Shown: piece after piece, positions 42,486 through 48,941 of the stretch
How positions within the stretch are numbered: the stretch's first letter is position 1
Layout: the number at the start of each line of letters is the position of its first letter
DNA from: Polychytrium aggregatum
Taxonomy: Eukaryota; Chytridiomycota; Chytridiomycetes; Polychytriales
Length of the DNA stretch: 64,000 nt
Assembly (NCBI RefSeq): GCF_025602895.1
Contig: NW_026516258.1
Span: 124,001-188,000, forward strand
Direction: 5' to 3'
Notes under the pieces: model-generated
Database searches by the model: none
The model's input: only the letters and a program-made list of their open reading frames with translations
Told to the model about the DNA's origin: nothing
Translations under genes and position numbers: made by a program

Positions 42486-46606
<4,121 letters not shown>

Positions 46607-47159
46607 TCTGTTCGGAGGGTGATGTGGTGGTGGGATGCACAGAAGGCAGGATGATCGCAGGGAGACGAATATACGATGTCGAAAGAGCAATTCGATCTGC
46701 ACAGTCAAAAATCGGCGATGGCAATGGCAGCCTTCAGCGGATGAGCCGGGGCTGGAGCCGGTCAGGGTCAGATGCGGGGGGATGGCGAGGTGGTTGTTGG
46801 AATCTGGGTTGGCAAGGCAGATCGCCCGATCAATTTTTTCCGGCCCCTCGCGGCTGCTCATCTCGGTCACCTGAAAGTCACGTCGAATGTGGCGCAGCAA
46901 AAGTTGGAATCCGGCCATGGCCGGTTGACGGCATTTGGTATCGTCTTGAGCCGATTGACGGTGGTGGTGGGCAATTGGTGTGGAGGAATGACCAATTGTA
47001 TCATTGTTGGAAGCTCCACTCCGATTGCGGACAAGAACCGCCACCATCTGAATCTCTCTGGTTGGAACCTAGTCAAGCGTGGCTGTGTGTCAGCGAGATG
47101 ACATGATCGTTTGGCTATCGGGCAAGACTCACCTTGACAAGATGTCTTCGCACGACTGA
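46607..47159. promoter_or_regulatory. Region between DHX33-like start and Fanzor fragment
   Basis: About 550 bp that should hold the helicase promoter. I looked for an N-terminal Fanzor exon on the plus strand and found none that reads as one. Confidence 0.55.
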
Positions 47160-47984
47160 TTGAGCGAGCGATGCGTTTCTGGATCTGAATCAAGGACGCC
47201 ACTGCGCAGTATCTCTGCCAGCCCAAAATGCGCTGGTTTTGAGGAGAGTTTTTCTTCCCCAAGGGCAGAACCAGCCATCGTCGCTATTTTCTCGCCAGAT
47301 GGCTCCCCGCAAGAGAAAGACACCACCCAGGCGACCAAGTGGATCCAGAGCACCCACAAGATCCTTGATCTGCAGGAATGGATGAGCACCACACCAAGTC
47401 CCAAGATCCCCGGGTTGGCTTCCTTCCTGCAATACATTCGCCATGTGTTCGATGGAGACATGCTGGACAAACAGCTGTACTTCAGCCTGACCCGGCGACG
47501 GCGATTCAAGCGACTCGATCTCTACGGCAAGCGACAGCGCACCGTCCACGAGATGTGCAAGCAAGTCATCGACCAGGCACCAAGGGAGACCGACATCGTG
47601 ATTGCCTTTGGGAATGCATCCTGGAAGCAAGGGAAGGGATATGCATCCAGTCCCAGGAGACTCAGGTTTGCCAAGTACTTTGAGCAGTTCCACCACCACC
47701 AGAGACGACCACCAGACCAATCCGTCTCCAAGATCCATGTGTGCTCGGTGAACGAGTTCAACACATCCCAGGTGTGCTCACACTGTCGGGAAGCCAAGCG
47801 ACTCGAGAAGGTCGAGCATCTTGATATCGAGAAACCACACTTTGTCCGGAGCTGTGCAAGCTGCCATACGCTGTGGGATCGAGACATCAATGCAGCCAGG
47901 AACATGATCTCGGTATGCCAGTCGATCATCGCCACAGGAGATCGACCGGGTGTACTCACGACGATCCTTCCCAAACCAAAGTGA
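47160..47984 (+). CDS. Fanzor (eukaryotic TnpB-like RNA-guided nuclease), RuvC and zinc-ribbon fragment
   Basis: The frame is open for 274 codons; clear similarity starts near 47268. Visible parts in order: a RuvC-I-like EPAIVAIFSPDG (47268 on), where Fanzor/TnpB proteins have DPG...; a basic helix (YFSLTRRRRFKRLDLYGKRQ); IVIAFGNASW (about 47598), where TnpB has its RuvC-II glutamate; VNEFNTSQVC with Glu at 47754, about 47 residues later; zinc-ribbon cysteines CSHC (47775-47786) and CASC (47853-47864); RuvC-III WDRDINAARN with Asp at 47883; and a terminal GDRPGVL. A missing canonical Glu with a replacement about 45 residues on is the known rearranged site of Fanzors. The wedge and recognition domains that should precede RuvC are absent, so this is a 5'-truncated copy or its upstream exons are unrecognised. 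No TnpA or terminal inverted repeats were seen. Confidence 0.85.
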   Translation: MSERCVSGSESRTPLRSISASPKCAGFEESFSSPRAEPAIVAIFSPDGSPQEKDTTQATKWIQSTHKILDLQEWMSTTPSPKIPGLASFLQYIRHVFDGDMLDKQLYFSLTRRRRFKRLDLYGKRQRTVHEMCKQVIDQAPRETDIVIAFGNASWKQGKGYASSPRRLRFAKYFEQFHHHQRRPPDQSVSKIHVCSVNEFNTSQVCSHCREAKRLEKVEHLDIEKPHFVRSCASCHTLWDRDINAARNMISVCQSIIATGDRPGVLTTILPKPK

Positions 47985-48941
47985 CCCTCGAGAGCATGAG
48001 TGGCTCCATGCGTCTCAAGTGAAAACCGGCATGTCACGATGCATCTGTCACTGTTTTCAATCAATTCATTCGTCTCTGTTCATTTGACCTTTGTTCTAAA
48101 CGCATAGAAGGCGGGGGGAGGGGGGAAGGGCTGGCATTGCTCATAGAAACGGTTGAGCACATCCGACGAGACTGGAGAGAGAGGGAAGGCAGGCCCAGGG
48201 ACCTCGTTCCGCAAAACATCGTATCTCTATCGATATCTACGCGTCCTCGTCCATGATCCACATTCGATCTCCAGAGCTGGTGAATGTGGAATCATGCCGG
48301 ACATATTGAATGGCGAATCGGAGCAGAGTAAGGAGGAAAAAGCAATGGAAGAGAAAGAAGAGGGAGAGGGTAGACGACAGTGGAATCGTTGTGCAAAGAG
48401 GGGGGGGCATCGAACGAAAAAGAAGAATCGGTCAAGGGCGAAAAGCGAGAGCGGCACAGGGTGAGGCAGTTAGGCTAAAGAAAGTATTATAGCATAGAAA
48501 TATTCAAGTGAAGTAGAAGCTGCGTTGGCAGAGGGGCAACGAAAGAGAAAGTGGCTGAGAGTTCGGAGACAGCGACGCACAGCGACTTTGATCCGAAGAG
48601 CATCATCACAGCCCCAACGAGGGTAGAGGGGAAGGGCAGGGGAAGGGACAGAACCGGTGGCGTGAGCGTCAGATCAACAGGGGGCGGGTTGTCCGGGATC
48701 CACGAATATGGTTCCCGGGTGGAGCTTGGTGGGTATTGTTTGGTCGGGTAAGTGTTGTCGAGGGTGGGATGGTGAGTGCAAGGATCCGTCGTAGCGACTC
48801 CTCGCTCGTAGTGCTGTCTGCCAGGAGCTGTAGGGGCGGTCTTTGCTCGAAGCCAAGCGGCAGAGTACTCGGAACAACGACAAAGAAGGGGAGGCAATGA
48901 CGAATCCCCGTGCACGATCTTCTGTTTCACCAGGGATGGTA
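47985..48941. other. Fanzor 3' flank and ferric-reductase 3' flank
   Basis: No gene is supported. A 27-nt hairpin lies just after the Fanzor stop (47990-48016). The rest is purine-rich sequence with a poly-G run at about 48403 and no clear repeat. Confidence 0.5.
47990..48016 (+). ncRNA. Candidate omega-RNA hairpin after the Fanzor fragment
   Basis: GAGAGCATG (47990-47998) pairs with CATGCGTCTC (48007-48016) with one bulged G, giving a 9-bp stem and an 8-nt loop, 6 nt after the stop codon. Fanzor and TnpB guide RNAs come from the 3' end of the nuclease gene and just beyond it, so the place is right. There is no other proof that it is transcribed as a guide. Confidence 0.3.

Follow-up and report, generated by a model that had tools for sequence, protein, structure and literature searches.

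The Fanzor-like frame at positions 47160-47984 of the window, by which we mean the whole 64,000-nucleotide stretch of Polychytrium aggregatum DNA analyzed here, very probably belongs to an inactive copy, with two deletions, of a Fanzor transposon that is abundant in the genome. Fanzors are eukaryotic relatives of CRISPR nucleases. The frame runs on the plus strand for 274 codons without a stop, and its translation contains CSHC...CASC, DRDINAARN, VNEF and a basic region, the motifs on which a preliminary description had based its proposal of a TnpB/Fanzor zinc-ribbon frame. The proposal was borne out, also by the profile search suggested with it: PF07282 (Cas12f1-like_TNB) matched residues 191-249 (E 1.1e-10, 41.9 bits, cut-off 26.3) and was the sole Pfam family detected. 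NCBIfam guided_TnpB scored 5.9e-6, under its whole-protein cut-off, as expected of a fragment.

The genome searched comprises 64.7 Mb in 418 contigs. PF07282 gave at least 150 matches over the cut-off (the best 150 of 663 first-look candidates), and a protein search with the window ORF gave at least 141 scored matches, window included (141 of 1508 candidates), which indicates that the ORF is more than a chance frame. Counted by eye, the match begins no later than residue 21 in 76 of these 141 rows (with the window), a start that we take as the mark of a deletion junction, and 37 have frames of at least 768 aa; the list is biased to likeness with the window copy and is no census. In a DNA search with 47000-48100 (best 40 of 1346 candidates scored, window included), the other places were 95-97% identical and most matched as far as window position 47979. 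Among 20 pattern matches to possible viral relatives, none was confirmed.

Aligned with the other copies of what we call family A, the window copy has its left end at 46826-46829 (Table 1), so that the feature extends further than the frame first described. The left end near 46826 is reached by 24 of 25 other copies (L037 is interrupted; L030/L011 is 5'-truncated). Internally, about 1.8 kb of the Fanzor gene are gone, RuvC-I included, and the alignment runs unbroken over the junction in each of the 25 other short copies. The window copy diverges at 47980, while 24 of the 25 others continue for about 470 bp; the exception, L016, has lost most of this 3' stretch and kept the right terminus. No other short copy among the 25 ends at 47979. 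Set against 15 others, the window copy has private bases at only 8 of 1154 positions. Being common to the whole family, the internal deletion would predate the insertion in the window; from these alignments it appears to be old and shared, and the right truncation specific to the window copy. The deletion could be recurrent rather than single, but the one exact junction argues against this. With its right end also lost, the window copy is a relic. The earlier idea of a recent truncated insertion was thus half right, since the internal deletion is older than the insertion.

Table 1. Features of the window copy and of the adjacent helicase gene
Feature	Positions	Strand	Basis
DEAH-box helicase gene, 5' part, outside the element	44846..46606	-	Pfam DEAD and PDB matches
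Family A copy, 3'-truncated and internally deleted	46826..47979	+	94-97% identity to 25 other copies
Degenerate left terminus	46826..46842	+	CCCGATCAATTTTTTCC versus family form CACTATCAATTTTTTCC
Low-diversity non-coding block in family A	46976..47200	+	pi per 25-bp step
53-bp remnant of mariner-type transposase 3' end	47140..47192	+	88.7% identity to L060 (family B)
Original Fanzor start and NLS (MAPRKRK...)	47299..47385	+	Frame 47164-47385; alignment with full-length start
Internal deletion junction	47320..47328	+	Window aligned to L054 on both sides of a 1.8-kb gap
Remnant C-terminal Fanzor frame	47382..47984	+	First in-frame ATG 47382
Zinc ribbon and RuvC-III (TNB domain)	47730..47906	+	PF07282, residues 191-249

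Because the element is cut off at 47979, the stop codon of the remnant frame (47982-47984) and its last codon are flanking DNA. The original start and NLS persist as 28 codons that are out of frame with the remainder after the deletion, and the end of this upstream frame overlaps the ATG that opens the C-terminal frame. The published Fanzor motif, D-X(125,275)-[TS][TS]XX-C4 finger-X(5,50)-RD (PMC3627910), is incomplete in the window copy: the RuvC-I Asp is deleted and the motif is complete from TS onwards. Without RuvC-I the protein, if made, should be catalytically dead. The copy had been described as lacking everything before RuvC; RuvC-I is indeed lost, but the stretch after it, through RuvC-III, is kept.

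In the neighbouring helicase gene, segment 44849-45760 matched Pfam DEAD at 2.6e-14, and the top PDB matches were pre-mRNA-splicing DEAH helicases (5e-62). Its likely ATG, read by eye, is at 46606, which puts the left end of the element 219 bp away and not about 550 bp as given before. The link between the Fanzor copy and the helicase is incidental, a matter of position only.

Family A and its mariner-Fanzor relatives

Family A elements end in CACTAT/ATAGTG, that is, in CACTATCAATTTTTTCC and the reverse complement of CACTATGAAAAAA. Recognisable right ends close in ...TTTTTTCATAGTG or a near variant; in L023, L024, L028 and L035 no right end was recognisable. At up to one mismatch CACTATCAATTTTTTCC occurs at 126 sites in the genome, and the reversed-pattern control at none. 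Exact 3-bp target-site duplications flank 14 of the 24 distinct copies with both ends (10 have none), a number reached in none of 20000 permutation rounds (mean 3.1, maximum 11), and other duplication lengths (2, 4, 5, 6) were seen in 0-1 copies; the duplicated sites L015, L020, L026 and L058, the family B loci and copies without a recognisable end were left out of this test. The minimal form also sits in a duplicated target, as L062, a copy of 250 bp, has both ends and a TCA duplication. At L061:51-1125 (C51:45700-46900) there is a fold-back, with two inverted family A left ends about 1.07 kb apart.

CACTA (En/Spm) transposons have a CACTA terminus and a 3-bp target duplication. Family A resembles them in the CACTA-like terminus and the 3-bp duplications, both found at its outer ends, and differs from them in its short imperfect inverted repeat and in the lack of an En/Spm transposase near the listed ends: for 100 listed ends of the 126, the 10 kb around them contain none of the 29 matches to PF02992 (En/Spm transposase). 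With no such match near the listed ends, and a trans-acting source being possible, we do not file the family A ends as En/Spm.

The search for full-length copies elsewhere in the genome, proposed as a check in the preliminary description, was successful. The family A form was found in 8 of 12 full-length loci, seven with both ends recognised and L057 with the right end only. Measured end to end, these elements are 3353-3724 bp long, and each has one uninterrupted ORF of 818-933 aa on the element strand; their ORF lists contain no transposase frame. RuvC-I (IGIDPGVG) and the C-terminal domain are present in all seven aligned proteins (seven of the eight of family A, L058 being left out), and a basic N-terminus with a zinc-knuckle-like motif in six, the exception being L053, whose ATG lies further in. 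The published motif is complete in L056 (D558, 197 residues to TS, RD ending at 796; finger-to-RD distance read by eye), and in L049 QD replaces RD. With profile A1 against PDB, SpuFz1 (8gkh) was the third of three matches, with the C-terminal RP-VF stretch aligned and a weak E of 0.56; in a single-sequence PDB search it was not among the matches listed.

The four loci of family B (L052, L055, L059, L060) have no CACTAT ends. In L052, L055 and L060, transposase sequence lies upstream of the Fanzor, between mariner-type ends beside TA. L060 has the only intact transposase frame among the four (310 aa; DDE_3 2.6e-24), and L059 aligns from the transposase end onwards only. A further locus, L063 (family C), encodes a transposase of this kind, likewise 310 aa long, together with a Fanzor of 790 aa that is 43% identical to the first sequence of alignment A1; it is apparently nested in or beside a family A tail (L063 at C402:125250-129500, tail at C402:129744). 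Read by eye, TA stands beside three left and four right ends in family B, and L063 has it on either side. With a DDE_3 transposase and TA-flanked inverted ends, families B and C have the features of Tc1/mariner-IS630 elements. A transposase search scored at least 128 copies (of 539 candidates), most of them without stops.

Several observations connect family A with these elements. The region of L060 matched by the 53-bp remnant of the window copy is the transposase C-terminus. This remnant lies within a block, 46976-47200, that is far less diverse than the Fanzor coding part in short and full copies. In seven full-length copies, pi per 25-bp step is 0.000-0.023 in the block and 0.034-0.274 in the steps beside it; the corresponding values for 15 short copies are 0.000-0.029 and 0.011-0.196. 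By eye, the block also includes a splice-donor-like string on the minus strand. The right mariner terminus was read in 29 family A copies, with near-constant sequence after it; four family B copies, in contrast, have four different flanks after the terminal TA. The right-end pattern was not found in L016, L035 and L054 and gave a false match in L051. The sequence after the mariner end occurs at 106 sites at up to two mismatches, and at 107 with the mariner prefix (three mismatches). We also looked for an empty outer element carrying this sequence, and no unoccupied copy was found, as the mariner end precedes every one of its 60 exact matches.

The transposase end, the right terminus and the contrast between constant sequence in family A and varied flanks in family B show that the family A core is a mariner-Fanzor truncated on the left and lying between other ends. 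A mariner-Fanzor would have been taken up by a second DNA transposon and have multiplied between the ends of that transposon, moved in trans by a transposase encoded elsewhere that acts on CACTAT ends. A copy without the middle of the Fanzor gene may then have amplified as a non-autonomous form. The window copy would be of this form and would, at a later time, have been deprived of its right end and of the hairpins of the candidate omega-RNA.

According to Saito et al. (2023; PMC10432273), the SpuFz1 omega-RNA spans the right-end repeat, with a guide of 14-15 nt beyond it. The candidate omega-RNA of our elements is the matching 90-nt segment that precedes the mariner right end; it forms three hairpins, and its fold surpasses that of every one of 200 shuffles (z -3.27). 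The alignment fold is -13.1, against -6.6 +/- 3.0 for column shuffles (best shuffle -17.9), with little covariation, and Rfam gave no match at gathering scores for the window and three loci. A hairpin block after the mariner right end was also considered and rejected (z -1.39, 18 of 200 shuffles as good). If the guide is taken from beyond the mariner right end, it would be nearly identical in every family A copy. The 90-nt region is absent from the window copy which, having lost this region and the right end, would be able neither to move nor to guide.

Some other loci with related sequences were noticed. At L004:2211-2681 (C157), a transposase N-terminus is joined to a frame resembling the Fanzor 3' tail, by eye a short mariner-type derivative. 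L003:283-1713 (C124) and L002 contain a 476-aa ORF made up of the N-terminal part of an IS607-type transposase and a TnpB/Fanzor2-like nuclease; the L003 ORF matched NF033518 at residues 12-80 (4.3e-12, under cut-off) and guided_TnpB at residues 166-473 (1.8e-31, over cut-off). The IS607-type copies are paired in inverted orientation, with about 5.1 kb between the two, both on C124 and on C379 (where L006 and L007 are matches of the same length).

Insertion sites present twice in the assembly

Many insertion sites are present twice in the assembly. Leaving the window out, a second locus was found for 15 of 23 sites tested, and all 15 are occupied on both contigs. For the junction of the window copy itself, no second locus was among the matches listed, in which single flanks tied at the cut. 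Empty sites were sought for 24 joined junctions, for which contiguous matches should rank first, and none was found among the best 40 of 417 candidates.

In four same-site pairs, the flanks have 6 substitutions in 7054 positions (2/1769, 3/1686, 0/1799 and 1/1800) and the elements 133 in 8399 (28/1550, 12/1580, 9/1598 and 84/3671, in the same order); gaps, including end gaps, number nine in the flanks and 18 in the elements. In a fifth pair, L012 on C166 and its counterpart on C79, the flank is identical over 440 of 440 positions, with a full-length element of 3361 bp on C79 and a short one of 1627 bp on C166, which have 59 mismatches where aligned. Over element plus flank, whole-number identity is 99% for L017/C335 and 97% for L048/C113. 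Protein-search scores differ in all 14 doubled pairs with both members scored.

Two homologous sites of mariner copies served as controls. Their elements differ at about 2/1571 (C369/C335) and 3/1505 (C384/C399) positions, about 5/3076 together, which is about as much as their flanks; the difference between the Fanzor elements and these controls is significant (Fisher p 9e-13). The first pair was found by synteny, the second was picked for equal scores, and element and flank were split by hand. The low-copy IS607-type pair C124/C379 has the opposite pattern: 2/1431 differences fall within the ORF and more lie around it, the totals being 27 and 34 mismatches for about 3148 positions.

The simplest reading of the doubled sites, on the sequences at hand, would be that elements are often converted, or gaps in them repaired, with other family members as the template.

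The main rival is that the excess divergence is an artefact of assembly or polishing of high-copy repeats, to which we give a substantial chance, although less than an even one. The differences are nearly all family polymorphisms (in a separate alignment, only 2 of 149 differing sites had neither allele in other copies), and mis-mapping of reads would give the same result. Moreover, as many as seven further pairs with equal scores may consist of identical homologous copies; for one, C364:459527/C392:3839, the positions agree with the contig offset. On the other hand, mariner copies are also very abundant and differ little at homologous sites, although two pairs are a small control. Polishing cannot create the 1813-bp length difference between L012 and C79, and a repeat-induced misjoin usually swaps one flank, while here both are identical (440/440). 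In addition, there is no N in 286 kb of loci.

Under the repair reading, ectopic templated replacement is perhaps stimulated by Fanzor. The stronger proposal, that Fanzor, or excision followed by Fanzor cutting, drives the templated replacement of its own elements, is in our judgment unlikely to be right. If true, breaks at sites that hold or have just lost an element would be mended from other family members, a site would stay filled while its inner element is swapped, full-length for short included, sites would be kept from emptying (15 of 15 doubled sites are occupied on both contigs), Fanzor variants and 'ghost' forms would be shuffled, and the process would be a eukaryotic counterpart of TnpB-assisted retention with a genome-wide footprint.

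Constraint and exchange among short copies

Over 195 C-terminal codons, dN/dS is 0.27 (0.18-0.41) among 22 short copies, the window included; L015, L016, L026 and L020 (short) and L058 (full-length) were not part of this test. Besides the window, 24 short copies have no stop in the projected frame, and indels are found only in L024 (three bases inserted) and L027 (one base deleted, a frameshift). In our reading, the low overall dN/dS stems from sequence exchange between short and full-length copies. The two kinds are interspersed in the tree, and 84 variants occur in both. Variants private to one short copy comprise 32 nonsynonymous and 15 synonymous changes and no stops (omega about 0.76), against an omega of about 0.26 for variants shared with full copies (Fisher p 0.005, private against all other variants). 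Constraint on the remnant ORFs thus seems weak at the tips of the tree. Recombination was apparent in a test made without L015, L016, L026 and L058: of 3240 informative site pairs, 1632 are incompatible, and compatibility between neighbouring sites exceeds that in each of 5000 permutations. Copies of the family would keep exchanging sequence, even where same-site elements on homologous contigs are concerned.

The KP element is a repressor of the Drosophila P element, and it is the model for another explanation of the low dN/dS, namely that the C-terminal protein of the short copies is functional and kept by selection, for instance as a repressor of the full-length Fanzor or of transposition. 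This would agree with the dN/dS itself, with the open frames of the 24 copies, only two of them with an indel, and with the overlap between the 28-codon upstream frame and the C-terminal start codon. Nevertheless, the intermixed tree and the 84 shared variants mean that the pattern can come from full-length copies, omega of the private variants is about 0.76, L027 is frameshifted, and 11 of the 76 short-type rows, among those scored, have a stop in the matched stretch. The split between private and shared variants points to exchange with full-length copies, and we rejected a KP-like repressor as an explanation of the low dN/dS; such a function is improbable.

The earlier alternative of a gene with unrecognised 5' exons, which would make the window ORF the final exon of a functional, single-copy Fanzor gene, has hardly any chance of being right: the frame is open and introns are possible in a eukaryotic genome, but the full-length copies are single uninterrupted ORFs that contain the missing part, and the missing 1.8 kb are exactly the middle of that ORF, with a junction shared by 25 other short copies, so that hidden 5' exons are unsupported.

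Relation to known Fanzor elements and meaning

Fanzors in mariners, Fanzor-only elements and ghosts, as well as 5'-truncated, internally deleted and chimeric Fanzor elements, were known already (PMC3627910, PMC10432273, PMC10711439). PGv-1, PUl-1 and PUl-4, described by Bao and Jurka (2013; PMC3627910), are Tc/mariner elements with Fanzor1. They have mariner TIRs and TA duplications, and carry Fanzor either by itself or along with a mariner-like transposase; our families B and C match them. Compared with the elements described there, family A would represent a further step, the capture of a 5'-truncated mariner-Fanzor by a DNA transposon of another type.

Spu-1 of Spizellomyces punctatus is, as described by Saito et al. 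(2023; PMC10432273), an inverted-repeat element with Fanzor and TA duplications. It is present as 134 ghosts and as 42 loci in which all or part of Fz is retained. The ghosts are without the Fanzor gene and keep the ends and the omega-RNA region; the short copies of family A, unlike the ghosts so described, keep a 600-bp C-terminal remnant. Again in comparison with that description, family A differs from Spu-1 in having the Fanzor core inside second, CACTAT-type ends with 3-bp duplications, near-constant sequence after the mariner right end, and a transposase-bearing partner in the same genome. The Fanzor itself is, by the best PDB similarity, only weakly like SpuFz1. Neither same-site replacement nor a mariner-Fanzor under CACTA-like ends was described in the titles and first lines of abstracts among the matches listed from the open-licence Fanzor/TnpB literature.

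In a recent preprint (Mears et al. 2025; PMC11870625), TnpB promotes the retention and spread of its own element on bacterial plasmids. Compared with insertion-sequence maintenance as presented there, what we have here is a sequence pattern in a eukaryote, for which other causes are possible. What Fanzor does for the transposon that carries it was left as a question for S. punctatus by Saito et al. (PMC10432273).

The P. aggregatum genome combines a mariner-Fanzor with transposase, a Fanzor-only element with other ends and a non-autonomous form with a shared deletion, all in high copy number. The window copy itself is an ordinary relic. The part worth following is the doubled-site pattern: sites present twice, with an element more divergent than its surroundings, provide a natural assay of whether Fanzor promotes the retention or copying of its element.
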